Source: Onchidella celtica (Eukaryota; Mollusca; Gastropoda; Systellommatophora; Onchidiidae). From it: a stretch of DNA of 64,000 bases. The stretch's first letter is position 1, and every line of letters begins with the position of its first letter. Both the position numbers and the translations under genes were made by a program. A model generated the notes under the pieces. That model ran no database searches, was not told where the DNA came from, and saw only the letters and a list, made by a program, of their open reading frames with translations. The stretch is taken from the NCBI GenBank assembly GCA_963931925.1, contig OZ007570.1, positions 60,782,432 through 60,846,431 of the forward strand, given 5' to 3'. Shown here one piece after another: positions 3,136 to 57,071 of this stretch.

Positions 3136-3139
3136 CACT

Positions 3140-3420
3140 GATCGCGGGTGGTATTGATTACAGACGTAAGTCACTTTTGGCCATTTTTCAGGAAGTGAAA
3201 AAAACCGCATTTACTCATTTTCGATTTAATCGCTTCCAGCTATTGTGTGAATGTGACAATCAGTGTTGCGTGTCACTGCAGCTTGCTCGTTTTATGCTGG
3301 AACCACCTGTTTTCCTCAGCGAGGACTTACGTCACTTGCAAATTAGAAAAGAGTTTTTGATTACAGGTGTAAGTTTACTTACGACCCAGTTATGCCTGAA
3401 GCTAGACATTGATCACAGAT
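3140..3420. repeat. Repeat with GATTA..CGTAAGT boxes, related to 8.16-8.58 kb
   Basis: The block CGGGTGGTATTGATTACAG, continuing into GACGTAAGT, recurs in inverted orientation near 8.55-8.57 kb. A second box (TTTTTGATTACAGGTGTAAGT) lies near 3354. These look like terminal or internal repeats of a DNA element, but no clean TIR pair or target duplication was established. Confidence 0.4.
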
Positions 3421-3489
3421 GTTGCATTGCCATATTTAATCGGCTTTGGTGTCCTTTCGAGGACATACAGCTAAAGTACAACTCTACCA

Positions 3490-4371
3490 TTTAAAAACAC
3501 CTCTGGGTTTCCTTCATCTTTGACTTTTCAATTTGAAAGGGACTGGGTCCAATCAATATAGTAACAATGTCAAGAGGTAATGGCATATTAGCAAACAATA
3601 TAATGTAAGTAACAAATTGGGAAAGGGTTGGGGGGGGGGGGGGGCTGTCAGACTCCATTCGCTCTTCCTTCTAATTTGTACTATCATTCACACATTCATT
3701 CACATGCAGGACATGACGTCATCATCCACCCTCTCAGTCTCCCTAAAGAGCAGAAGCTGCAACTGACACATGAGGACACACTTTCACAATACGTAATAAC
3801 TATTACATTATTCCATTTCAAGTTTTAATACGAACTTTAATTTCGTGCATATTGGACGAAACTGCATGAATGTATCATACCATCACTGCCAACTGGCGCC
3901 ATTCAGTACTTACTTTTTACAACGCATCACATAACATACGAACATCCAAAGGATATCTGCATGTAGTATGAGGATTCTTCCTATCCGCCCATACAGTGCT
4001 TAACTGGTGTGGTGGAAACGTTACGCCATTGTTTAACCCGGGCAGATTGGCAGCAGGCTAAATTTGTGCACAAATACGAAGTAGCAATAGTGTGCAGATG
4101 TTTACATCGGAAAAACATAATAATATTTTCAAAATGCTGTCGTCCTTCCTGACTGAAAATTTTTTTAAAAAAATACTAGCGATCTTATCCTCTTCCTCTC
4201 ACTTTCTCTCCCTCTCTTCTCTTTCCCATTTTATTGACATGCTCACACGAGCACATAAGATTAAAAACTGACATTAAGTGTTAAATTCTATGCTTTCATA
4301 CACTTTCAGTGCAGTAACTGTATGCAGCTGTTCGGTCAAGAAAAACGGACACTTTGAGCTAATGCAGAGAC
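3490..4371. other. Unassigned DNA with a poly-G tract and a CRE-like palindrome
   Basis: A G run lies at about 3630-3644 and a TGACGTCA palindrome at 3713-3720. No coding sequence was recognised. The right part is the 3' flank of the minus-strand gene that starts at 4372. Confidence 0.4.
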
Positions 4372-7150
4372 TTAAAATATTCGTTGCTTTTCGCAGAGAA
4401 TATCAAGATCTCTTAACTTTTCTTCCTCAAGAGTAATGTATTCTTGACGAACGGGTTTTAAATTAATTTCTCTTGCGCCTAACAAATATTTTTTTCTACC
4501 CTTTTGTTCAAGGTTAAGTTGGACCCAGCTGTTTTCTTCGTAATCGTATGATATATCGATTAGGTTGGGCGCTTCTCGTTTGATTCTTATTCTTTTGATT
4601 TTCAGGAAATTAACTTTCTCTCTGTTGGTATCCACTTCAAAATTCTTTATTTGCTTAGATATTTCCTTGATATCTAAGAAGTCAGTAAGATCTAGTTCGT
4701 TTACTTCATATTGTGGAGGTTTTTTTCTGGCTGTTCTCATGCAGGCGGCCCACTGTGGGGTTGTGTATACATTGATATTACGACACGATTGTTCTATACG
4801 GGAATGAATCCCGTCCACTTCATTCTGACTGTGGCCGCTCACAAAAAAAGTGTGCCTTATTTCTGTTAAATCATATTTCGTCCTCACCCACCACAATAGT
4901 GATAGAATATGTCTATTCCTGTTTTGGCCTCCACATGCATCAGAATAGAAGGAAAAGATTTTGTTCCCTTTCTCTATTTGACTTAAGATATATTTATACA
5001 GGCAGGATCCAATTTCATTGGATCCACGCTGTGCAATCCTTTCGTTCCAAATATTATTTATACCCAAGTCCATGCCATAATCATGAATTGACAAGTTATA
5101 AGTATTCAATCGTCTCCTGTGGTAAAATCCCTTGGCGTTGCCTTTCGGGGTGGGCAAAACATCTTATAAATCAAATGTGCACGATGAGAATTGGGCATCT
5201 GTTTTGGCTCTCTGTTTATCAGTGTCCTTCAACTGTCTTACACGATCTTTCATGTAGTGGTGGTCTAGATATTCCTTTTTCATGTCTTCTTTATTGACAC
5301 TATTTTCGTATGCTGTACAGAAATCACATCGGTCCTTAGATCTCTTAAAGAAGCCTAAATTATATTCTGTGTAGAAAATCTGCTTGTACGTCGACAAGCT
5401 CACTGGACTTGCGTTTTGCTGCTTCCTTTCCTCTTCGTACATAGCATATATTTTTAGTAAGCTCAAATCACTACTCAAATAGAATCGACGAGTTTCCTTC
5501 CTACAGTAATGGCTTTCAGTTCGCGGAAAACTGTCTATGTGCTTCCGAGCGTATTCTTTCTCATTGCCCTTTTCATTAGGGCGCACTGCTAGTTTCCCCC
5601 TTTTTTCTGGGTTTGCAACTCCTAAAATGTTTCTGTTTTTCAGTGCAGTGTAAACCATCTTTTCACTCACGTTTAATGTGTCGAGGAAAAATTTTTTGCA
5701 GACCTCAACCTCAACTGAGTTTACCTCGAACTTCCATTTTAATGTACGCTTCCTACGTGAATCTTCTGTGGCTTTCACCAGTTTTTTATCCACTTCTTTA
5801 ACGTTCTGACTGATGAAGTCACGTTGCCTTCTAAGGCAACCCAGCTGCCAGAAACCATGGAAAATCTCTTCCCTCTGACTTGCACTTACATTGTGTTTGC
5901 ATCTGTACCTACATCGCTCACCACATCCTGTCTTCATCTCTCTTGCCTTAACAGTTTTTCCACGTCTTGAAATATACTCCTCTCCACAATTCCTCTTTCG
6001 CTTGATTATATTAAAGACCCAGTTGTCTGGGTTTCTCTGTCTCCTCCTTCCTCGAACAGGACCTGGTTCATTTGAGTCGCAACGCACAGGCTCTTGTCTA
6101 TTATGCGATGATGGACTGACAGAAGCTATTCCACTGAGCTGGTTGTCTGGAAGTGGGGTGGAGGAAAGAACCAAAGGTGGAACCCTTTTTCCAACACGTT
6201 TTTTCTTTGGAGTAGGAAGGACATAGCTGTCGTCATCCCCACCTTCCGAATCAGATATGTGGCCAAAGTCATGAGAAATAGACGGTTCGTCTTCCAACAA
6301 GAAAAGTTCTTTCAGTTTCCTCTTTGCTCTATGTTTGCTGCATCGTTGCACAGGAGACTCCTCTGCGGCTCTCAGGCCATGCTCCTTTTCTCGACTTTGC
6401 CCTCGCTGTTGTCTGTTACGTTGTTTTTCCACCTGATCCTTTAACGTTTTTAAATGTCCGAGAGGGATGTTTTCACAATCACTGTCAGCAAGGTCCAATT
6501 CTTGGCATAGCAGCAGACTATCGCCTTCATCGTTAACTTCATGGAATGGACCAGTGTCAGCCTGTGAAGGGCACTTAATATTCACCGATGTTAATTCGAA
6601 CAGGTCACCAGTATGAAGTGAATCCACTAAATCCTTAAAGAACAACTCGACGTCGTTGTAGGAATGAACAGTCAATGTTGCCTTCCCATCTGGTGCTGAC
6701 ATTCCCATCTCATTTCTGGCATGGGAATCAAAGACGTATATTCTGTCTTCAGACTTTATCAGTCCACATGAGTAGGCAGGTGTGCTGGAGCCGATGGTTA
6801 GAATACTGAACCTGTCACACTTTCTAATTGCTTCTAAAAAAGAAATGAAAGGAGCCTCAGTTGTTGACAGTGTTCCATAAAAAGAATCCAAAATCTCCAC
6901 CTCGTACTGTTTACCTTCTATCCAAAATAGTTTCGCTAGATCGGTAACTAATGGGTAGTTTCCGCTGATGCAAGAATTAGCACATATCCAGTCTCCGTTC
7001 TTCAAAATTTTGTTTAGAACCTCTGTATTCCAGTTCGTGACTACAACTGTCTGGTGCATCATAAAACTGGCCACTGCATTGAACGTACATTGTCGACCTG
7101 GTGCTTTGAAAGAGAGTGACCCCTGGTGCGTGCTGGCTTGAATGGAAAAC
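4372..7150 (-). pseudogene. C76-like cysteine peptidase joined to Cys-rich, DUF7869-type transposase-like protein; one in-frame stop
   Basis: A single minus-strand frame runs from about 7150 to 4372, interrupted only by a TAA at 5164-5166; the same frame resumes directly. The N-terminal part resembles the herpesvirus tegument deubiquitinase fold (peptidase C76). It has a GRQC box with the putative nucleophile Cys at 7087-7089 and a downstream Asp-Ser-His (codons 6729-6721) fitting the family's Asp-x-His. A basic stretch containing PKKKRV could be a nuclear signal. Next comes a Cys cluster (GCGERCRYRC), then a region with SDACGGQNRN, a GHSQNEVDGIHSRIE-type box and AQRGSNE, typical of uncharacterised invertebrate transposase-like proteins that I know as DUF7869 (name from memory). 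The frame stays open upstream of the first in-frame GTG (7072-7074) to a TTTCAG acceptor at 7151, so an earlier exon is likely missing. The C-terminus looks slightly short. It may be a DNA element gene or a recently broken domesticated copy; no TIRs were found. Confidence 0.65.
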
Positions 7151-7194
7151 CTGAAACAATGGAAACATTCCTGTATATATCATTAAGATTTGTG

Positions 7195-7280
7195 CTTTGT
7201 GTGTGTGTGTGTGTGTGAGGGGGGGGGGGAGAGGGGGAGGAGTAGATGTAAGAGAGAAAGCGGGAGTGAGATACAGGCAG
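7195..7280. repeat. GT microsatellite plus G/GA tract
   Basis: A (GT)n run is followed by a G run and GAGGGGGAGG-type purine sequence, just upstream (minus strand) of the peptidase-like exon. Confidence 0.85.
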
Positions 7281-8160
7281 AGCGAGTGACAGATGGAACT
7301 CGAGTTATGCAACACGAAACCATTCATGCCAATTTAATTAATTATTATATTATGGAGTACATTTACGATGTGCTCATCTCCACATATAAAGCTCTAAATG
7401 CTCCCACATTTTTTTCATCAGCAGGCCATAATCACTTTATTATAATCTTGGCTCACTAGGGAGCATACAAGGCTCTGAACACTAACATTGGACAATGTCC
7501 CACAACGCCCATCATTTGCATCTGAGTCCTGTAGGGACAGCGAGAATACAGTGTCTTTCTTAAGGACTTAACGGTACAGACAGCCTACAGATGAAATGAA
7601 CCTTTATGCGGCCTTCAATGTAACAGGCGTTTGCCTCATGAGAGCAGCTCACTGACCACTCTCCTACACTGCCTCTAAAGAGCAAGGATCTGAATAACAT
7701 GACAGGCACTGCTGGATTAATTTTCCACTGAAACTACTCTAGCATTCTCTAACCCCTTCTCTTTCTCACTCTCTCTCTCTCTCTCTGCCAGTGTGTGTAT
7801 GTGTTCCTCATTCTCTCCTTCTGTCTGTCTGTCTCTCTTTCTCCCTCTATAGAACACCTCTCCCCTTTGTCCAAACGCCGTAGGCAGGTAAAGGCAGTTT
7901 GACCACAGTTAGCGGCAGATACCCTCGGTATCGTTGACCTATCCAACCCTTGAATTTTTCATTATGTCAGGTTGGAACTTTCTACTTTCTACTAAACACA
8001 GAGTAATCAAAGAGTACAACAGAAATCTTGCTCATATTTTGCATGTAAATTGTAGACACACAAATAGTTAACAAACTTACCTCTCATTAGAAATCTCCAT
8101 CATCGTAAAAGACAAAGCGCTGACAAAATCTCAAGTGCGTCGTACTAACACAGGTAATAA
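7281..8160. other. Unassigned DNA with a short CT tract
   Basis: A CT-rich microsatellite lies near 7755-7850. No coding sequence was recognised. Confidence 0.4.
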
Positions 8161-8580
8161 ATCATGCACGTTTGGGAGCTTTTCTCGGAAATATGACAAC
8201 TCCAGCCTTGACCTTCATTTGAGCATAGACGTACGTGACACTCACTGTATGAAGGGATGGTGTACTTTGCGGCACTAGACAGTTTTTGATTAGTGTCGTA
8301 AGCAACCATACGACTGTGTGAATGCCTATTCTGGTTGCGCTTCGAGAGAAAAGCAATTGATTAGAGCCGTAAGTACTCATACGACTGTAATCAAAGATTA
8401 TCTTAAGGCATATAAACATACGACCATTGAATAAACTGAAATAACTTCGCAAGTAAAAGGGCTAGAGGTACCGCTATCAGGTAAAAAAATGCGGGAAAGC
8501 CTGGTCCTCAATAATATGAAAAAACCCGGGAAAGCCAAATTTTGGACTTACGTCCCTAATCAATACCACCCGCGTGATGA
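8160..8580. repeat. Repeat with paired CGTAAG / CATACG boxes
   Basis: Two internal boxes combine TTGATTAG and CGTAAG with a nearby CATACGACTG (about 8285-8320 and 8357-8400). Each can pair CGTAAG/GTATG with CATACG as a short hairpin. The right end matches, inverted, the start of the 3.14-kb repeat. Probably a non-autonomous DNA element remnant. The minus-strand open frame across it has no family motif. Confidence 0.4.
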
Positions 8581-19125: not shown

Positions 19126-19362
19126 TCTGACAAACATGTTGTCAGTTAAAGTAGCTGGCATTACCAGATCTAGAATCTAGACGTATCTGAAAAAAAAAAA
19201 AAAAAAAAAAGGCCCCTAAGCCAAGCCCATGAACCAAGACCTATTATCGATAGAGCAGAGTCTATGAGATCAGACCTGACAGCAAGAATAGATCGACACA
19301 GTGCAGAGTCTATGAGTTCAGACCTGAGCCAAATCTACTAGATCTACACCACAGAGTCCATC

Positions 19363-22300
19363 ATGAATCTCCCACCGTATGAACAATTCGATTGCCACAC
19401 TGAAGGTGCCGCAGTTCGATGGCCTAGATGGGTCCGCAGGCTGGAGCACATCTTTGATGGATACGAGATAGCTAGCAGCAAACGAAGATACGCTCTTACC
19501 CTCACTTATGGTGGTCCAGATCTAAATGATATTGCAGAATCATTACCCACTATCAATACCATACAAGCCTCAGATGAATCTTATAAGGACCTCATTAAAG
19601 CTCTAACAGATCATTTTAATCCAAGATCAAATTTGGAGATCCTGAAATATGAATTCAGACACAAGCGGCAGAAAGAATTTCAACGAATTGACGATTTTTA
19701 CTCCGAACTCCGCCAACTTGCGTCTCAGTGCAATTTTCCGAATGCGGAGGATGAAATAAAATCGCAACTCATATCAGGTTGCTCATCGAAGAAAGTGAGA
19801 GAAAAAGGACTCACTACATCAACGCTTGACGTAGCAGGATTGTTACAGTTCGCGAGAAGTCTGGAAATGACTGAAGAATTCTTAAAAAAGCTGACAAATA
19901 ACACAGCACAGCCACAGCAAACTCAGATGAGTAGAGTAAAATCAGGTGGATTTAAAAAGAATGAAAAGCATTACAAAGGGGCAACAGCACCACAACAAGG
20001 TCACAAACCACATAAGAAACCTTATAATCATAATCATCACAGACCTACCAGTGTTCAGTATCAAAATTGTCGCAGGTGTGGGAAAGGTCACCCACGTGAC
20101 CAATGCCCAGCAAAAGGGAGAACCTGCCACAAGTGTCATAAAGCAAATCATTTTGCCAAAATGTGCAGGTCAAACATTAGAGAGGTGACTGAAGAATTTG
20201 AACAAACATTTTCAATAGATACAGTCATTTCAGACAAATCTCCACCATGGAGCACGATGCTCAACATTCAGAATACAAATGTTCCTTTCAAAGTGGACAC
20301 AGGAGCTGACATTACTTGTATTACTCAGAAAACATTTCAAAGGTTGAGAACCAAACCGACATTGCATCAATGTAAACTGAATCTAACCTCACCAGGAGGA
20401 AATATTCAAGTGAAAGGAGAGTTCACAGCGAAGACAAAGAGAAAGGAAAAGACCTTTGAATTCAGAGTTGTGGTCTTAAACAACAAAGAAGGTAGCAATT
20501 TACTCAGCAGAAATGTGGCCGAAGCTCTAGGCTTAATCAGGCACATAGAAGACATAGAACGCACAGAAAAATTAAAACCTGAACTAAGAAAACAAGTTTT
20601 TGGTGCTGCCGGACTGTTGAAAACTGAACCAGTAAAAATAACATTAAACAAAGATGCTGAACCATATAATGTTGCAACAGCAAGAAGAGTACCATTCCCT
20701 TTAGAAAGTAAAGTAAAAGAAGAACTGGAAAGGATGGAAAGAAATGGGGTAATAAGAAAAGTTAATGAACCTACAGAATGGTGTGCCCCAATGGTCCCAG
20801 TAGTAAAACCAAACAAGCAAGTTCGGATCTGTGTGGATTTCAAGAAGTTAAATCTTTCAGTGAAAAGAAACTACTGCATGCTTCCAAACTTAGAGGATAT
20901 CGCTCCCAAATTCAATGGCGCAACAGTCTTTTCTACACTAGACGCAACCTCTGGTTTCTTCCAAATTCCCCTCGAGGAAGACAGCAGCATGCTCACAACT
21001 TTCATCACACCGTTTGGAAAATACTGTTTCCAGAGAGTACCCATGGGAATATCATTAGGTCCTGAAGTATTCCAATCAAAAATGAAAGAGACTTTAAAAG
21101 GCCTGCCAGGTTGTGAAGTCATTATGGATGATACCATCATCTATGGGAAAGACATAGAGGATCACGACAGAAAACTAGAAGCTGTTTTGGAGAGAATAGA
21201 ACAATCAGGACTGAAATTAAATAAAGAAAAATGTTGTTTCAGACAGAAAGAGGTGAAATACTTTGGACATCTCATAAACAAGGAGGGAATAAAACCAAAT
21301 CCTGAAAAGGTGGAGGCCATACAGAAACTACAGCCGCCAACATCATTGACAGAGCTACGCACTGTGTGTGGGTTACTCAATTACATGAGTAAATTTGTTC
21401 CATCACTAGCTACAATTTTGAAACCTTTGACTGATTTGATGAAAAAGTCAGAAAAATATCAGTGGGGAGCAGAGCAGAAAAATGCATTCAACCTTGCAAA
21501 GAAGAAAATAGCAGAAGCTACAACCTTGGGATTCTTTGACATTAACTGTGAAACAATTGTCAGTGCAGACAGCAGCAGTTTTGGGTTGGGAGCAGTGTTA
21601 ATACAGATGAAAGGAAGCAAACTTCAGCCCATAGCATTTGCATCTAGAACATTGACAGAAACAGAAAAAGGTTATGCCCAAATAGAGAAAGAATGTTTGG
21701 CTTCGGTCTATGCATGTGAAAAATTTGGAAAATACCTAATTGGTCTTGATAACTTTGAATTACAAACAGACCATAAACCATTGGTTCCATTGATGAAGAA
21801 AAAAGATTTAGATAAATGCCCTGCCAGATGCCAAAGACTACTGATGAGACTTTTAAGATTCAACTACAATGTCATTCATGTGCCAGGGAAAGAGCTCGTC
21901 ATTGCTGATGCTCTCTCTAGAAGTCCAATGAATTACCATACAACTCAAGATAAAGAAACAGGACAGAATGTAGAGGCTTATGTGGAATCTCTGGAAAGCT
22001 TTTGGCCCGTCACTGCTTCACGATTAGAAAATCTGAGGGAAGAAAGCAAGAAAGATACAGACATACAGAAAGTGATGCATTTTGTGATGGATGGCTGGCC
22101 AAAAGAGGTACCTAAAACACTACAAAATTTTCAACAAGTGCAAGGAGAACTGTCTATTGTGAATGGATTGTTAGTTTTCAACAACCGAATAGTAGTCCCT
22201 CATTCTCAAAGAGATTACATTCTCTCTAAACTACATGAGACTCACCAAGGAATCGAAAAGTGCAGACAGAATGCTGACGCATCCGTGTGGTGGCCCGGCA

Positions 22301-23349
22301 TCACGAGAGATATCAAGAACATGATTCAGAACTGTCTCTCCTGCAGAGAAAATAGACCCTCTCAGCGGAATGAACCATTAATACCAACTGACCTACCTGA
22401 GAGGCCATGGCAGAAAATTGCAGTAGATCTCGCTACACATGGGAAAAATGAATACTTAGTCGTAGTCGATTACTACTCAAAATGGATCGAAGTAGTAAAA
22501 CTGAATTCTACAACATCTCAAGCTATCATCCAGAAGCTAACAAACATTTTTGCAACTCACGGAATTTGTGAAACTCTGGCTAGTGACAATGGACCACAAT
22601 TTCAGTGCAGAGAATTCAAACTCTTTGCTAAAGACTTTGACTTTCAACATGTGACCAGTAGTCCACACTTTCCTCAGTCCAACGGACAAGCCGAAAGTGC
22701 TGTGAAGGTTGCAAAGAAACTTTTGAAACAGAATTCATTAGAGGTAGCTCTGATGAACTACAGAAACACAATTCTCTCAACGACTGGAGTGAGCCCAGCA
22801 GTCGCCCTGATGGGACGACAACTGAGAACAAAAGTTCCCACATTGCCGAGGAACCTTTACCCTCGACAAGTCAACAACCAAGACATCCAAGACAGAGCAA
22901 AAGAAACGAAAACAAGATACAAAAGGAATTACGACAACAGACATGGCGCAAGACAACTGAAACAACTGGAGTCTGGACAGAAAGTTCTTCTCAAGACAGA
23001 TGAAGAAAACAAGTGGACCGGACCAGGAACTGTCATTGCAACAAATCCAGATCACCGAACATATTTGGTGAAAACACCTGACCGGGTGCTGCGCAGAAAC
23101 CGGAAACACCTTCAAGCAGTACCGTCTTCGTTTCCTGATCAAGATCCAAGCCCAGATCCTCCAGATGATGTGCTGCAAGATAACGAACAAACCCAAGATA
23201 TTCCTGCAACACCTAGTTCAAATTCTAGAGTCGTCAAATCCCCTCCAGAAACAGTGTCTACAAATAGACCTGTCACTCGTATGGCTCGAGGCTATGTTGC
23301 TAACAAGCCAGCCAGATTCAGGGAGGAAGAGATGAGAAGGTCGAACTAG
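19363..23349 (+). CDS. Gag-Pol polyprotein, Ty3/gypsy
   Basis: One open frame of 1,328 codons. The N-terminal third is Gag-like, with two zinc knuckles from about residue 236 (CRRCGKGHPRDQC then CHKCHKANHFAKMC). The aspartic protease has VDTGAD with catalytic Asp312. RT has the FSTLDATSGF box (Asp527) and IMDDTIIYG (Asp589/590). RNase H follows with Asp736 (SADSSSFGLG). Integrase has a His-His-Cys-Cys zinc domain (His958 to Cys991/Cys994) and a DDE core at Asp1022, Asp1075 and Glu1111, then a basic tail. Gag and Pol are fused in one frame with no frameshift or stop. All catalytic residues are present, so the protein looks functional. The ATG lies 254 bases after the 5' LTR. Confidence 0.95.
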   Translation: MNLPPYEQFDCHTEGAAVRWPRWVRRLEHIFDGYEIASSKRRYALTLTYGGPDLNDIAESLPTINTIQASDESYKDLIKALTDHFNPRSNLEILKYEFRHKRQKEFQRIDDFYSELRQLASQCNFPNAEDEIKSQLISGCSSKKVREKGLTTSTLDVAGLLQFARSLEMTEEFLKKLTNNTAQPQQTQMSRVKSGGFKKNEKHYKGATAPQQGHKPHKKPYNHNHHRPTSVQYQNCRRCGKGHPRDQCPAKGRTCHKCHKANHFAKMCRSNIREVTEEFEQTFSIDTVISDKSPPWSTMLNIQNTNVPFKVDTGADITCITQKTFQRLRTKPTLHQCKLNLTSPGGNIQVKGEFTAKTKRKEKTFEFRVVVLNNKEGSNLLSRNVAEALGLIRHIEDIERTEKLKPELRKQVFGAAGLLKTEPVKITLNKDAEPYNVATARRVPFPLESKVKEELERMERNGVIRKVNEPTEWCAPMVPVVKPNKQVRICVDFKKLNLSVKRNYCMLPNLEDIAPKFNGATVFSTLDATSGFFQIPLEEDSSMLTTFITPFGKYCFQRVPMGISLGPEVFQSKMKETLKGLPGCEVIMDDTIIYGKDIEDHDRKLEAVLERIEQSGLKLNKEKCCFRQKEVKYFGHLINKEGIKPNPEKVEAIQKLQPPTSLTELRTVCGLLNYMSKFVPSLATILKPLTDLMKKSEKYQWGAEQKNAFNLAKKKIAEATTLGFFDINCETIVSADSSSFGLGAVLIQMKGSKLQPIAFASRTLTETEKGYAQIEKECLASVYACEKFGKYLIGLDNFELQTDHKPLVPLMKKKDLDKCPARCQRLLMRLLRFNYNVIHVPGKELVIADALSRSPMNYHTTQDKETGQNVEAYVESLESFWPVTASRLENLREESKKDTDIQKVMHFVMDGWPKEVPKTLQNFQQVQGELSIVNGLLVFNNRIVVPHSQRDYILSKLHETHQGIEKCRQNADASVWWPGITRDIKNMIQNCLSCRENRPSQRNEPLIPTDLPERPWQKIAVDLATHGKNEYLVVVDYYSKWIEVVKLNSTTSQAIIQKLTNIFATHGICETLASDNGPQFQCREFKLFAKDFDFQHVTSSPHFPQSNGQAESAVKVAKKLLKQNSLEVALMNYRNTILSTTGVSPAVALMGRQLRTKVPTLPRNLYPRQVNNQDIQDRAKETKTRYKRNYDNRHGARQLKQLESGQKVLLKTDEENKWTGPGTVIATNPDHRTYLVKTPDRVLRRNRKHLQAVPSSFPDQDPSPDPPDDVLQDNEQTQDIPATPSSNSRVVKSPPETVSTNRPVTRMARGYVANKPARFREEEMRRSN

Positions 23350-27650: not shown

Positions 27651-27669
27651 AAAACTATGAGCACATCAG

Positions 27670-27760
27670 TCTGGCATTAAAGTATCTGGGAGGGAGAGAG
27701 AGGGAGGGAAGGGCAGATGGACGAGAGGGGTGGGTGTTGAGAACAAAGGGGGAGGGGGGA
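27670..27760 (+). repeat. GGGAGAGA purine leader of the G-run satellite, copied at 33.6 kb
   Basis: GGCATTAAAGTATCTGGGAG, then GAGAGAGAGGGAGGGAAGGG, recurs almost unchanged at 33601-33642. The two copies lie on either side of the satellite-rich 27.7-31.8 kb block. Confidence 0.75.
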
Positions 27761-27794
27761 GACGGGAGATGGGGAGGACAGGGTAACGTGGGGG

Positions 27795-30235
27795 GTGGGG
27801 GGGAGAAAGATGGGCTGGATGAGAGAAATTGGTTTGTCGGAGGGGTAATGGGGGGGGGGGGGAAGATAGGAGAAATTGGTTTGTCGGAGGGGTAATGGGG
27901 GGGGGGGGAAGATAGGAGAAATTGGTTTGTCGGAGGGGTAATGGGGTGGGGGGGGGCAAGATAGGAGAAATTGGTTTGTCGGAGGGGTAATGGGGGGGGG
28001 GGGGGAAGATAGCAGAAATTGGCTTGTCGGAGGGGTAATGGGGGGGGGGGGAGATAGGAGAAATTGGTTTGTCGGAGGGGTAATGGGGGGGGGGAGATAG
28101 GAGAAATTGGTTTGTCGGAGGGGTAATGGGGGGGGGGGGAGATAGGAGAAATTGGTTTGTCGGAGGGGTAATGGGGGGGGGGGGGGAGATAGGAGAAATT
28201 CGTTTGTCGGAGGGGTAATGGGGGGGGGGGGGAGATAGGAGAAATTGGTTTGTCGGAGGGGTAATGGGTGGGGGGGGGAAGATAGGAGAAATTGGTTAGT
28301 CGGAGGGGTAATGGGGGGGGGGAGATGGGAGAAATTGGTTTGTCGGAGGGGTAGTGGGGAGGTGGGGGAGATTGGGGGGGGGGGTAGATAGGAGAAATTG
28401 GTTTGCCGGAGGGGTAATGGGGGGGGGGGGGGGAGATAGGAGAAATTGGTTTGTCGAAGGGGTAATGGGGGGTTGGGGTGGGGGAGATGGGAGAAATTGG
28501 TTTGTCGGAGGGGTAATGTGGGGGGGGGGGGAGATGGGAGAAATTGGTTTGTCGGAAGGGTAATGGGGGGGGGGGAATAGGAGAAATTGGTTTGTCGGAT
28601 GGGTCATTCGGGGGGGGGGGGGGAAGACAGGAGAAATTGATTTGTCGAAGGGGTAATGGGGGGGGGGTGTGGGGGAGATGGGAGAAATTGGTTTGTCGGA
28701 GGGTAGTGGGGGGGGGGTGGAGGGAGGTGGGGGAGATGAGAGAAATTGGTTTGTCGGAGGGGTAATGGGGGGGGGGAGGGAGATGGGAGAAATGGGTTTG
28801 ACGGAGGGGTAATGGGGGGAGGGTGGGGGAGATGGGAGAAATTGTTTTGTCGAAGGGGTAATGGGGGGGGGTGGTGGAGATGGGAGAAATTAGTTTGTCG
28901 CAGGGGTAATGGGGGGGGGAGATGGGAGAAATTGGTTAGTCGAAGGGGTAATGGGGGGGGGGGGGAGATGGGAGAAATTGGTTTGTGGAAGGGGTAATGG
29001 GGGGGGGTGGAAGATGGGAGAAATTGGTAATGGGGGAGGGGGGGGGGAGAAAGATGAAATGCACAGGAGATATTGGTTTGTCGGAGGGGTAACGGGAGGA
29101 GGGGGGGGAGAAAGAGGAAATGTACAGGAGAAATTAGTTTGTCGGAGGGGTAATGGGAGGGGGGGGGGGAGAAAGATGAAATGTACAGGAGATATTGGTT
29201 TGTCGGAGGGGTAATGGGAGGGGGGGGGAGAGAAAGATGAAATGTACAGGAGATATTGGTTTGTCGGAGGGGTAATGGGAGGGGGGGGGAGAAAGAGGAA
29301 ATGTACAGGAGATATTGGTATGTCGGAGGGGTAATGGGAGGGGGGGGGGGAGAAAGATGAAATGTACAGGAGAAATTAGTTTGTCGGAGGGGTAACGGGA
29401 GGGGGGGGGAGAAAGAGGAAATGTACAGGAGAAATTGGTTTGTCGGAGTGGTAACGGGAGGGGCGGGGGGGAGAAAGATGAAATGTACAGAAGAAATTGA
29501 TTTGTTAGAGGGGTAACGAGGGGGGGGGGGGGAGAAAGATGAAATGTAGAGGAGAAATTGGTTTGTTAGAGGGGTAAAGAGGGGGGGGGGCGGAGAAAGA
29601 TGAAATGTACAGGAGAAATTGGTTTGTCAGAGGGGTAACGAGGGGGGAGAGAGAAAGATGAAATGTACAGGAGAAATTGGTTTGTCAGAGGGGTAACGAG
29701 GAGGGAGGGAGAAAGATGAAATGTACAGGAGAAATTGGTTTGTCAGAGGGGTAACGAGGGGGGAGGGAGAAAGATGAAATGTACAGGAGAAATTGGTTGG
29801 TCAGAGGGGTAACGAGGGGGAAGGGAGAAGGATGAAATGTACAGGAGAAATTGGTTTGTCAGAGGGGTAACGAGGGGGGAGGGAGAAAGATGAAATGTAC
29901 AGGAGAAATTGGTTGGTCAGAGGGGTAACGAGGGGGAAGGGAGAAGGATGAAATGTACAGGAGAAATTGGTTTGTCAGAGGGGTAACGAGGGGGGAGGGA
30001 GAAAGATGAAATGTACAGGAGAAATTGGTTTGTCAGAGGGGTAACGAGGGGGGAGGGAGAAAGATGAAATGTACAGGAGAAATTGGTTTGTCAGAGGGGT
30101 AGCCAGGGGGGAGGGAGAAAGATGAAATGTACAGAAGAAATTGGTTTGTTACAGGGGTAACGAGGGGGGGGGGGGGGGAGAAAGATGAAATGTACAGGAG
30201 AAATTGGTTTGTCGGACGGGGGGGGGGGGGGGATT
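27795..30235 (+). repeat. G-run minisatellite, two unit types
   Basis: About 2.4 kb of tandem units. Type 1 (27.8-29.03 kb, roughly 25 units of about 42-55 bases) reads AGGAGAAATTGGTTTGTCGG, then AGGGGTAATG, then a run of 8-14 Gs and AGATA or AGATG. Type 2 (29.04-30.2 kb, about 20 units of about 60 bases) adds GAAAGATGAAATGTACAGGA. Within type 2 the GGTAATGGGAG version gives way to GGTAACGAG. The G run is present in nearly every unit, shrinking to GGGGGGAGGG in the right part. Open frames on both strands (Gly/Trp/Arg-rich or Pro-rich) are by-products. Confidence 0.95.
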
Positions 30236-30430: not shown

Positions 30431-30702
30431 TTTTGCCCGGGCAGCGGCCTGTTCGGCCTGCTCTTTACGATTTTCAACTGCCAAGGTATCTTTAACGTGC
30501 GCAACGTGCACACGGGCCCTCCGAATTTTTTCGTCCTTATCCGAGAAGACTAGGTACTCGATCCTACCCCTCAATAGAATCAGGGACACGAAAATATGAG
30601 AAAAATCCCAAACTTCCAACATGCCTGCACGGCCCGGGTTTCGAACCCGGGACCCTTGGCACGAGAGGCGAGCACCTTGCCTCTAGACCACCTTGTCGGG
30701 GA
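30431..30702 (-). mobile_element. tRNA-derived SINE, copy 1
   Basis: The minus strand begins with a tRNA-like head (complement of 30623-30700) containing an A box TGGTCTAGAGG and B box GGTTCGAAACC. It is followed by a body with GCACGTTAAAGATACCTTGG and ends at GCCGCTGCCCGGGC. A second copy with the same order lies at 52279-52597. RNA polymerase III transcription from the A/B boxes is the family mechanism. The 200-base open frame across the body is not a gene. Confidence 0.82.
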
Positions 30703-30734
30703 GGGCGGAGTCTGGTTTATCCCTTGGGGGGGGG

Positions 30735-30790
30735 GGGGACAGAAAGATGGCATGGACAGGAGAAATTGGTTGGGGGAGGGGGTTCGAGAG
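30735..30790 (+). repeat. Stray G-run satellite unit
   Basis: A G run followed by ACAGAAAGATGGCATGGACA and GGAGAAATTGGTT: one diverged type 2 unit about 0.5 kb beyond the main array, on the far side of the SINE. Confidence 0.75.
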
Positions 30791-30879
30791 AGGAAAGGAG
30801 GGCGGAGTCATGTTAATCCCTTGGCAAGGCCTCATAATTATAGACCTCAAAATATGCCCATTGAACCATTCGGGCTACG

Positions 30880-31800
30880 AAAAGCCTGGGAAGCTGCCAA
30901 AAGCCTGGGAAGCCGCCAAAAGCCTGGGGAAACCGCCAAAAGCCTGTGAAAACCGCCAAAAGCCTGGGAAAACCGCCAACAGCCTGGGAAAACCGTCAAA
31001 AGCATGGGAAGCCACCAAAAGCATGGGAAAAGCGCCAAAAGCCTGGGAAGCCGTCAAAAGCATGGGAAGCCGCCAAAAGCCTGGGAAGCCGTCAAAAGCA
31101 TGGGAAGCCGCCAAAAGCCTGGGAAGCCGCCAGAAGCCTGGGAAGCCGCGAAAAGCCTGGGAAGCCGTCAAAAGCATGCGAAGCCGCCAAAAGCATGGGA
31201 AGCCGCCAAAAGCCTGGAAAGCCGCCAAAAGCATGGGAAAATTGCCAAAAGCATGGGAAAACCGCAAAAAGCATGGGAAAACCGGCAAAAGCCTGGGAAG
31301 CCGCAAAAAGCATGGGAAGCTGCCAAAAGCATGGGAACCCGCAAAAAGCTTGGGAAGCCACCAAAAGCATGGGAAAACCGCCAAGAGCATGGGAAAACCG
31401 CCAAAAGCATGGGAAAACCGGCAAAAGGCTGGGAAGCCGCCAAAAGCCTGGGAAGCCGCCAAAAGCATGGGAAGCCGCCAAAAGCCTGGGAAGCCGCCAA
31501 ATGCATGGGAAGCCGCCAAAAGCATGGGAAGCCGCCAAAAGCCTGGGAAGCCGCCAAAAGCATGGGAAGCCGCCAAAAGCGTGGGAAGCTGCCAAAAGCA
31601 TGGGAAGCTGCCAAAAGCATGGGAAGCCGCCAAAAGCCTGGGAAGCCGCCAAAAGCGTGGGAAGCCGCCAAAAGCGTGGGAAGCCGCCAAAAGCGTGGGA
31701 AGCTGCCAAAAGCATGGGAAGCCGCCAAAAGCCTGGGAAGCCGCCAAAAGCATGGGAAGCCGCCAAAAGCGTGGGAAGCCGCCAAAAGCATGGGAAGCTT
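30880..31800. repeat. 19-bp minisatellite, about 48 units, open in all frames
   Basis: The unit AAAAGCCTGGGAAGCCGCC varies mainly at CCTG/CATG/CGTG, GCCGCC/GCTGCC/GCCGTC and GAAGCC/GAAAACC. Because 19 is one more than a multiple of three, the frame rotates each unit and any translation repeats every 19 residues. With no stop in any phase, all three plus frames (a 409-codon frame among them) and the three minus frames stay open across most of the array. No promoter, splice or database evidence for a product is available. Confidence 0.95.
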
Positions 31801-32041
31801 CCAGCCGGAATACGTCCAGCCGGACTCCGCTTCAGAGACAGCCCCTCAAGACGACCCTAACGACATTCCTGTCGAGACTTGGGGAAACCCTTGCTACAGA
31901 CGGACCAAAAGGGCAAAACTAGCTGAACAAGACCGCAAAGCAGCCAATGAAAGCGAAAGGGCAGCACGGAAAATAATATCTAATAGCCAGAGTTATCTGT
32001 GTCCATGGAAACACAGACGGCTGGGTAGTGTCTCGTTGTAG
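31801..32041 (+). other. Coding-like tail downstream of the 19-bp array
   Basis: One plus frame that crosses the array stays open for another 80 codons to a TAG at 32039-32041. Unlike the array, this part is non-repetitive and hydrophilic, with an acidic segment (DDPNDIPVETWGNP) then a basic CYRRTKRAK / KAANESERAARK stretch. It resembles the C-terminal tail of a retroelement polyprotein or a short host exon, but no family was recognised. A second frame is open only to 31922. Confidence 0.3.
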
Positions 32042-34928: not shown

Positions 34929-36814
34929 ATGGACCGAACTGCCTTCGAGACTAAGCTGAGGGAAACTCTGGAGGGCAAGGCTTCCAATGTTGTTCTGCAA
35001 TCTACCACAGAGCGTGATCAAGTCATCGAAGAGTTGCTCAGAATCAATTCTGTGGGTGCAAAGACAACTTCTGATTTCAACTGTAAAAGAAGGTTTGAAA
35101 TTTTACGGGTCGGCAATGCGGACAGACTCATTCGCCGAAGGAAAGAGCCAGACGCTGTTAATTTTAAGTTTGTTGCTTCCCTTGAAGAAGTCTTTGACAT
35201 TGTCAAAGTTGCTCACGAGACTATTGGACATGGGGGTGGTAAGAAAGCAATTGCAGAAGTGAAAAAAAGTATTGTAACATCACCCAAGAAGCATGTTATC
35301 TGTACATATCGTTTTGTGAACACTGCCATCAAAAGAAGGCAAGAAAGTTGCCAAAAGGTCTGGTAGTTAAACCCGTGCGCAGTCATCACATTTTTTCCAG
35401 GTGTCAAATTGATCTCATAAATTTTCAAACTTTGCCTGACGGTGATTTCAAATATATCATGACTTATGTGAACCATTTCAGCAAATTTTGCACATTGCGT
35501 CCACTTGCGTCAAAAAGAGCAGAGGAGGTGGCAGCCAATCTTCTTGATATATTTCTGACATTCGGGGCACCTGCCATTTTGCAATCAGACAACGGGCGAG
35601 AATTTGTAAATGCCGTTATTGCGGAGCTATCAACCCTCTGGCCAGAAATGAAATTGGTGACTGGCCGCCCACGGCATCCCCAGAGCCAAGGTGCGGTTGA
35701 GCGCCTGAATGGAGTTATTCAGGATAAACTAGTGATTTGGATGAGAGAAAACAATAGTAAAAAATGGTCAGTGGGTCTCAAATTTGTGCAATGGCAAATA
35801 AACATTAGCCAACACGAAACTACCGGCTTTAGTCCATTTAAAATTACGTTTGACAACGATCCGCAAGTTGGACTGGGGTCGTCTCTCCTGCCAGGTGAAG
35901 CTTTGCGTGAAATATCGACCGAAGAAGATATTGAGGCATTTTTAGAAACCAGAGGGGGAGATGTAAGAGACACAGAGGAAGATAACGACACAGAAACAGC
36001 AGCAATGGGAGAGATAATGACAGAAACAGAAGCAGTCACCGAGATGGTTGCTGTGACTGAAAATGCAGTGAGAGTGGAAGAAGCAGATACGATGACTAGT
36101 GCAATTGTGACAGAAAGTGACGCAGACACAGATGTATTGGCACACGAAGACGTAGAGATGGCAGAGGAAGATGACGACACAGAAACAGCAGCAATGGGAG
36201 AGATAATGACAGAAACACAAGCAGTCACAGAGATGGTTGCTGTGACTGAAGAGGTGGCATCACCCACAGAGGACAATGAAGTGGAAGATGATGAAGCCAC
36301 TACAATGGCAGGAACATCAACATCAGCGGCAGTGGGAGCATCAGACATAGACTATTTCCGGCAAATAAGAAACATCGCCAATGCAGGGCAATCGAAGGCA
36401 GCAGACAGAAAGGCACGTCGCGGGAAACAACTGCTTAGGCCATTACTTGTTGGACAATGTGCAACGCTTCGAGTTCCCGACGTGGATCGAGGCCCAGCAG
36501 ATCCAAAAAATATTCTAGTGGTCGTCATCAAAGAACAGGATGGTCTGTACACAGTTGGTTGCCGCGAGGGAATACTGCATTCCAAATTTACATCAGCTGA
36601 TCTGGATCGTATAGACCACGCTTTAATGACAGTCAATGATGTTCTTGAGGTTTATTTATCATTGAGATCAGCAACAGCAAAGGCAACTGGTGGTCAAGGC
36701 TTTCAGAAATGCCAATGCAAAACAGACTGTACGTCAGGAAGGTGTACCTGCTTAAAAAAACGAATGATGTGCAACTCTCGTTGCCATCCCGGCAGAGCAT
36801 GCAAAAACGTCTGA
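34929..36814 (+). pseudogene. Integrase-like transposase (Ginger/GIN type) with one frameshift
   Basis: The first frame (34929 to 35366) carries an N-terminal region and the histidines of a zinc domain (HETIGHGGGKKA). The matching CEHC cysteines (from 35315) and everything after lie in the other frame, open from 35315 to 36814, so one base appears lost near 35310. The catalytic core has Asp at 35411-35413 (CQIDLINF), Asp at 35588-35590 (SDNGREF) and Glu at 35699-35701 (GAVERLNG); Asp-Glu spacing is 36. An acidic Thr/Glu-rich linker contains an 88-base duplication (35975-36062 and 36164-36251, 63 codons apart). The C-terminus is a cysteine-rich tail (CQCKTDCTSGRCTC then CNSRC). Genomic expression through ribosomal frameshifting is possible but unsupported. 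Confidence 0.72.
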
Positions 36815-54947: not shown

Positions 54948-57071
54948 ATGGAACTCGACCCCGTAAGATTCTATGGGAGGCGCCACAGGAATGTCGCTGT
55001 GCGACAAATACCAGACGAATCTGATGACAGTCAGCTTTCGTCATCTGATGACGAGGAAGTCAACATACCAGATCAAGATCACCAAAACACAAATTCTGGT
55101 ACAATATGGCCTTTTTATTTCTCCTGCTGTTGTTTGATTGTGTGTCCGTAGTTGTTTGTGTCATGTGGGCCAAAATGTATATTTCCTCTGTTGCATTGCT
55201 AATGCTGTTTTACACTTTACCATGCACAACAGTATGAATTCTAAATGAAATGAGACAGCTATTATCATTTCAAATAATAGTTCTCCGTTTCAAGTGTCAG
55301 AATGTGTTGTTTAGCTTCATGTAGGCCTATTTGTTTCAACGGCCTCTGGAAACAAGAAGTTTATTTATTATGGCTATTGTGACAACAAATTGGCATCATT
55401 ATATTTTTTGTTTCTTTCCAGGAATTGAATTGCTATATTGAATTTGCAAATTATTTATCCATACTCTGTCCACTGTTCTCAGATTCAAACTCAGAAGACT
55501 CGGACCCAGACGTCCCTGGTCCTTCCAGAAAAAAGAATGGTCCTCGGCGAGTCATCTGGCGGAAAAGAAGGCCTGAGGATGTGCCTGCACAAGAGCTGCC
55601 ATTCACTGGTAGGACCCCTGCTCCTGTCAATGAACTCAAAGATCCCATTCAGTATTTCAAACAGTTCCTAACGGACGACCTACTACTACACATGACAATG
55701 CAGTCAAACCTGTATGCCACCCAGTGCAACCCGAACAAGCCCCTGGAACTTTCTAGGAAGGAGCTGGAGCAGTTCATCGGAATTGTTCTCACGATGAGCT
55801 GTGTGAAAATGCCCAATTCACGCATGTATTGGAGCAAGTCTTATCGTTACAGCCAGATTGCAGATGTAATGACAGTAAATCGATTTGAACAAATCAAAAA
55901 GAATCTGCATTTGAATGACAACACCCAAATGCCCGTCGATAACACTGACAAGCTGTACAAGGTACGCCCTCTCCTGAACGGCCTGTGCATGAAATTCATG
56001 GAAACAATCCCAGCAGAGAAACTTAGCATCGATGAGCAAGTCGTTCCCTTCAAAGGAAGATCCACCTTGAGAACTTACAACCCCAAGAAGCCAAAGAAAT
56101 GGGGTTACAAGATCTACGTCCTTTGTGGAGTTGATGGTCTCATCCACAATTTTCAGTTCTATACAGGGACAATTTACCCAGTGCCTGGACAGCCTGACTT
56201 GAAAGCATCTGGCAACATCGTTCTGCAGCTACTTCAGGCAGTCCCCAGAGGTTTGTGGCATAAGGTCTACTACGACAACTGGTTCACGGGAATCGACCTT
56301 ATGTCCACTCTGTGGAAGCAGCAGATCGCCTGCGTGGGGACAGTTCGGGCAAACCGCTTGATGGGCTGCAAGATGGAGAGTGACACAGAACTGAAGGCTG
56401 AGGGCAGGGGATCAATGGTTCTTTACACGGGGCAAAGTGATGGAGTGGAACTAAACGTGGTAAAGTGGTTCGACAACAAGGCCGTCACTCTCCTGAGCAC
56501 TTTTGTTGCAGCTGAGCCAGTCAACGAAGTTGAGAGGTGGTGCAAGAAGGAGAGAAAGAAAATCACTGTCTCTCAACCAGCTGTCGTTGGAACATACAAC
56601 AAGTTCATGGGGGGAGGAGTTGACTTGCTTGACTCCCTCATTGCATTATACAGAACCCACTTGCGGTCCAGAAAGTGGTACCATCGAGTCATCTTCCACA
56701 TGTGGGATATGACCACCGTGCAGGCCTGGCTTCTCTATAGAAGGGAGGCTGCAGCAAAGGAGATCCCAAAGAAGACTCAGCTCTCCCTTCTGGACTTCAA
56801 ACTACAAGTGTCTGAATCTCTTATGAAGATGAACACAGGCGCTGGGAATGGAGCCAAGCGCGGCCGTCCATCGATGGACATGGAGCTGCAACTGGCTGCG
56901 AAGAAGAAAAGGGGACCAGCAGCTCCCGTCCCGGTTCAGGCTGTGAGGACTGACCAGACAGGTCACTGGCCTGTCTATGGTGAGAATACGCCAAAAATAA
57001 TGTGTGAAAAGTGTAGCGTCCACTTGTGTTTTACGCCAGAGAACAATTGTTTCAGGCTGTTTCATCAGTAG
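54948..57071 (+). CDS. piggyBac transposase (two exons, 579 codons predicted)
   Basis: Exon 1 is 54948-55098 and exon 2 is 55483-57071. The intron 55099-55482 has GT..AG ends and the phase is preserved (G|AT). A TTTACATTTCAG acceptor 14 bases before the ATG suggests a non-coding upstream exon. Exon 1 encodes a short basic then acidic Ser/Asp-rich leader. Exon 2 carries the DDD core: Asp234 in SIDEQ, Asp315 in YYDNWFTG and Asp431 in GGVDLLDS, the positions known for piggyBac Asp268/346/447. The C-terminus has a cysteine-rich finger (CEKCSVHLCF) that binds the element ends in the family. The protein excises and inserts the element at TTAA. An alternative acceptor near 55421 would add about 20 residues. 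Confidence 0.93.

Follow-up and report, generated by a model that had tools for sequence, protein, structure and literature searches.

The element and its gene

A stretch of 64 kb from Onchidella celtica (contig OZ007570.1), hereafter called the window, was analysed together with the genome assembly of the same species (1.14 Gb in 43 contigs, the window lying on contig C4). Positions 3143–8574 of the window, 5432 bp in total, are occupied by a cut-and-paste DNA transposon of the terminal inverted repeat (TIR) type with a single gene on the minus strand, broken in this copy by an in-frame stop. The predicted protein begins with a VTD domain, which belongs to the peptidase C76 deubiquitinases; a linker and a Cys cluster come next, and then a DUF7869 region in which the D-D-E pattern typical of transposases is seen.

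The TIRs are 30 bp long, with 28 of 30 positions complementary and the first 18 identical. In gene orientation, the repeat at 8545–8574 (minus strand) forms the 5′ end of the element and that at 3143–3172 (plus strand) its 3′ end. Directly outside both ends lies the sequence TGAT, an identical target-site duplication at 3139–3142 and 8575–8578. The 18-bp end occurred twice in the 64 kb, both times at an end of the element (up to three mismatches allowed, 0.03 occurrences expected), while a 22-base end pattern returned the same two sites and one more, with three mismatches, inside a subterminal repeat. Related subterminal repeats lie at 3355, within a plus-strand stretch at 3352–3385 with the core TTGATTA....GTAAG, and at 8284 (plus), 8355 (plus) and 8395 (minus), the last three being clustered in 8281–8395 (annotated on the plus strand).

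The long frame is located at 4372–7150 on the minus strand and is interpreted as exon 2 of the gene. An earlier reading of the letters alone (the sequence-only reading) had described a single frame here, joining a viral-type protease to a transposase-like protein. All the motifs it named are present in one phase, GRQC (from 7098 down), FDSH (6732), PKKKRV (6210), a Cys cluster (5925), SDACGGQN (from 4947 down) and GHSQNEVDG (4836), but the frame is split by a TAA at 5164–5166 into parts of 671 and 263 amino acids. The element extends beyond the coordinates of that reading, with ends at 3143 and 8574 and a predicted exon 1 at 8081–8103. A predicted splice in gene orientation, with the donor AGAG/GTAAGT at 8081/8080 and the acceptor TTTCAG/G at 7151/7150, would remove an intron at 7151–8080 (GTAAGT ... 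TTTCAG, minus strand) and connect the long frame, in continuous phase, with the ATG ATG at 8103. Including this exon, the frame has 934 codons with stops at codons 670 and 934, and its 3′ end is shorter than that of its relatives. The frame is not due to chance, since it holds two stops (the terminal one counted) against 28–76 in the five other frames of the same stretch and at least 39 (mean 62) in 2000 shuffles of it.

The VTD domain is encoded at 6580–7146, with the candidate catalytic residues Cys29 (7087–7089), Asp149 (6727–6729) and His151 (6721–6723). It is followed by the basic patch PKKKRV at 6193–6210, a possible nuclear localisation signal; some relatives have basic stretches nearby, the exact motif not being among them. 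A basic, Cys-rich region at 5794–6051 (GRRRQRNPDNW ... CGxxC...C) is conserved in the alignments and is presumed to bind DNA. The in-frame stop falls two codons past the first catalytic Asp candidate, D668 (5170–5172), and the Pfam match to DUF7869 at 4636–5031 contains the second and third candidates, D745 (4939–4941) and E794 (4792–4794). Both domain names proposed by the sequence-only reading were confirmed by Pfam: DUF7869 (PF25273) was found with 45.9 bits (E 6.3e-12, cut-off 26 bits) and Herpes_teg_N (PF04843) with 23.6 bits (E 4.6e-5), just below its cut-off of 25 bits.

Copies in the genome and relatives in databases

A protein search of the genome gave at least 77 matches (49 of 1576 candidates scored). 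A set of 33 loci was collected, among them the window copy as L001. The longest frame was examined in 27 loci, with L001, L002, L007, L031, L032 and L033 lying outside this count. At 23 of the 27 loci one uninterrupted frame of 917–1021 amino acids runs across both halves; the frames of the other four have 781–839, and all 27 together represent 16 distinct frames. The Cys motif and the Asp-x-His motif, whose conservation had been raised as a check on the protease assignment, were kept at 26 of the 27 loci (15 of the 16 frames). At L006 alone the His is replaced by Asn, and the frame there is also broken, in the DDE part. Among five family representatives, DUF7869 scored over the cut-off in all and Herpes_teg_N in four (38.6, 29.3, 25.4 and 40.1 bits), the fifth, L029, reaching 24.4 bits.

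The ends were tested in 25 copies. Both ends were present in all except L024, and an identical 4-bp target duplication was found in each of these 24. In six of the 24 (L011, L014, L017, L019, L020 and L028) other duplication lengths also match because of A/T repeats. The duplicated sequence reads ANNT in 19 copies, the exceptions being the window, L003, L004, L012 and L026.

One sister family, here called family A (L009–L022), comprises 14 copies of 5247–5253 bp, each with a 4-bp duplication and a frame of 1014 amino acids; its ends were set at C...G, and the one copy scanned with Pfam was over both cut-offs. The copies differ pairwise by 0.061% on average and by 0.13% at most (gaps set aside), with 22 of the 91 pairs identical, and their 500-bp left flanks show no mutual similarity. 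This combination of near-identity and unrelated flanks indicates very recent transposition. The 138-bp end of family A has at least 40 copies in the genome (40 of 173 candidates scored), and L032 and L033 are frame-broken near-copies of the family (99.5%) in which the VTD is present. For the 130-bp 5′ end of the window copy, at least 30 further near-complete genome copies were found, 89–98% identical (41 matches; 40 of 51 candidates scored), and by these sequence comparisons the window's own subfamily is older than family A. L026, L027 and L028 share a frame truncated within the DDE part, yet have 4-bp duplications at differing sites, and may therefore have moved in trans, as if by an intact relative. 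Pairs of window-type ends were also seen about 4 kb apart, shorter than the window copy, at C8:27640329-27644435, C7:16483025-16486938, C4:54490104-54494024 and other places; these are possible internally deleted derivatives.

Protein searches of the databases returned three proteins that combine the protease with the beginning of the transposase or more of it. P0002 spans the protease as far as the first Asp of the transposase, and P0006 reaches the Cys cluster from a gene model that begins past the catalytic Cys. P0007 is a protein of the sea slug Plakobranchus ocellatus whose database label reads 'ATP-dependent DNA helicase'; it reaches the basic region and has a Herpes_teg_N match of 25.9 bits, over the cut-off. 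Together with the uninterrupted spanning frames, these proteins show that the fusion does not arise from the way the letters were read and that the two halves do not invariably lie in separate genes. Predicted transposases without the protease were also found, namely P0003, P0004 and, from the leafhopper Homalodisca, P0005; in view of them the protease seems to be an addition to this transposase type. The contigs of P0003 and P0004 are just 3.7 and 3.0 kb long, so that a protease might be encoded in another exon. No relative was confirmed by tblastn in viral contigs or in prokaryote genome contigs.

The two halves of the protein and the neighbouring frames

The best-matching solved structure for the N-terminal half is 8ADD, the VTD of zebrafish DrT1, with whose Cys and Asp-x-His those of the present protein align. 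A C76-like fold, a papain-like one of the VTD type, was found; neither of the outcomes named as refuting the sequence-only reading came about. The catalytic Cys could be counted onto C322 of PMC9741609, the Asp falling one residue off D451. Between families the identity of the VTDs is as low as 28%, with Cys and Asp-x-His still kept, and the linker after the domain is long and poorly conserved (15–40% identity). A search of the PDB with the window sequences alone returned nothing relevant, NCBIfam nothing over the cut-off, and PHROGs a best E of 0.032. We infer that the domain is an active enzyme with ubiquitin as its substrate.

In the transposase half, the putative catalytic residues D, D and E are separated by 74–78 and 47–50 residues in all nine proteins measured. 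Just ahead of the E stands a DxxH motif in seven of the nine, replaced by DxxF in P0003 and P0004. C/DxxH is a signature common to five transposase superfamilies (PMC9587614, PMC10045372); the likeness of DxxH to it is one of motif, and an equivalent position in the superfamilies is a candidate assignment. Beginning with the second strand, the predicted secondary structure of P0004 keeps the order of an RNase H fold, but the strand of the first Asp is not seen. The P0004 model is weak (predicted template modelling score, pTM, 0.27), and Foldseek returned nothing significant for it.

Pfam scans of five other frames elsewhere in the window yielded domains of the piggyBac, retroelement or integrase kind, or no match. 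A herpesvirus origin of the locus was ruled out by these neighbours and by the transposon ends. At 55383–57071 (plus strand) an apparently uninterrupted open frame of 562 amino acids has a full-length DDE_Tnp_1_7 domain (E 1.9e-74) and is presumably a piggyBac-like transposase. The plus-strand frame at 19342–23349 (1335 amino acids) has reverse transcriptase, RNase H and integrase over the cut-offs, with weaker gag and aspartyl protease, and is predicted to be a single-frame retrotransposon polyprotein. At 35243–36814 (plus strand, 523 amino acids) an integrase core (rve, E 5.8e-9) is followed by acidic repeats and a Cys-rich C-terminus. The stretches 27655–29626 and 30687–32041 are long repeats open in several frames, coding mostly for simple peptide repeats.

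Proposed role and comparison with known systems

A transposase carrying its own deubiquitinase is the best-supported description of the protein. The Cys-rich region and the DUF7869 core would cut and join the element ends, leaving the 4-bp target duplication, and the VTD would strip ubiquitin off the transposase or off the proteins that accompany it on the DNA, letting the transposase evade proteasomal destruction for as long as its work requires. Protection in cis is the simplest version of this mechanism because the VTD is fused to the transposase. We consider this role of the VTD in the broken DDE-type element and its relatives probable, with appreciable room for doubt. Weighing against it, the VTD shows no visible constraint within families, and in the Pfam scans P0002 had no match and P0006 a Herpes_teg_N score of 13.5 bits, under the cut-off.

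An action of the VTD on the host instead, on chromatin or repair proteins at the donor or target site, such as ubiquitinated histones, or on a germ-line silencing factor, is a less likely yet serious alternative. The domain order would agree with it, as attachment to a presumed DNA-binding transposase would put the enzyme on chromatin, and domesticated VTDs are described as expressed in the male germ line, with speculation on a part in transposon inheritance (PMC9741609). The preference of some VTDs, like the viral ones, for K48 chains is more in line with protection from the proteasome, even if the group of virus and transposon VTDs also cleaves K63 and K11 chains (PMC9741609).

We regard as very improbable a VTD that is carried as a passenger, either no longer catalytic or useless to the element. 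The missing constraint within families would suit such a passenger, as would the predicted relatives that lack the domain, the loss of His in L006 and the inactive VTDs present in Drosophila (PMC9741609); against this stand the Cys and Asp-x-His kept at all examined loci except L006, across families with strongly diverged VTDs, and the fact that L006 is frame-broken in its DDE part as well. An N-terminal papain-like domain ahead of a long, poorly conserved linker would also suit a protease that frees the transposase from its N-terminal part by self-processing. Some polyproteins have their protease placed in this way. By eye, no conserved cleavage motif was seen in the linker, and the characterised members of the Asp-x-His VTD group cleave ubiquitin (PMC9741609), which makes self-processing very improbable. 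The long frame with its predicted intron could also suggest a domesticated host gene, an explanation to which we give almost no weight in view of the TIRs, the 4-bp duplications at 24 sites, the 14 near-identical copies in unrelated flanks and the in-frame stop of the window copy.

The preferred reading, a transposase protected by its own deubiquitinase, suggests that such transposons may use ubiquitin removal to aid their own movement. With deubiquitinase domain and DDE-type transposase in one polypeptide, survival of a transposon by ubiquitin removal becomes directly testable in these elements, whose frames are uninterrupted and whose recent copies are nearly identical. DUF7869, for which the Pfam entry carries no function, can now be assigned to the transposase of a mobile element with 4-bp target duplications, a concrete role. 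The herpesvirus-type deubiquitinase family has a second class of transposons among its carriers, a point relevant to how the family travelled. More tentatively, and with the balance of our judgement slightly against it, DUF7869 could serve as the catalytic core in a DDE superfamily that has no name yet and of which one branch captured a herpesvirus-type deubiquitinase and has moved recently, or is moving still, in an animal; DDE transposons too would then have spread VTDs between animal genomes, and ubiquitin removal could be a general means of evading host control.

No report of a DDE transposase with a VTD was found in a literature search that covered neither Repbase nor most subscription journals, and the combination may be described in a repeat library. 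The VTD family was defined by Erven et al. 2022 (PMC9741609), according to whom the non-viral members occur mostly in Helitrons, molluscs included. The same paper mentions that in cnidarians there are VTD genes joined to 'several transposon-associated domains', and the available portion of its main text names neither a VTD on a DDE transposase nor DUF7869. In a D. virilis transposable-element paper, a figure legend names a UL36 domain.

Helitrons are not known to have TIRs or to make a target duplication. A Helitron was ruled out here by the TIRs and duplications, and by the Pfam scans, which showed neither a Rep nor a helicase domain. The likeness to the VTD-bearing Helitrons and Helentrons (zebrafish DrT1 and DrT2) lies in the fusion of the VTD into the main protein of the element, with the same Cys and Asp-x-His; theirs is a rolling-circle system with a RepHel protein (PMC9741609), whereas the present element has a DDE-type transposase, inverted repeats and 4-bp duplications. 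With the N-terminal deubiquitinase of the herpesvirus large tegument protein (C76, PF04843; M48, 2J7Q) the protein shares the domain family and the active-site motif, but the tegument protein is a capsid-attached viral protein and the present one the transposase of a genomic element. Its C-terminal half is a member of the DUF7869 proteins over the curated cut-off; it is placed within an element that has moved and bears an evenly spaced D-D-E set. Kolobok transposons duplicate TTAA, whereas the four base pairs duplicated here vary. Like the present element, the Kolobok lineages are DDE transposons, with accessory proteins differing by lineage, but the accessory enzymes named for them are nucleases, an exonuclease and helicases (PMC9587614), in place of which a domain of the deubiquitinase type is found here. 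The 4-bp duplication also fits the AcademX lineage of Academ, for which 3 or 4 bp are given (PMC10045372), a likeness in duplication length alone and in a length common to other superfamilies too.
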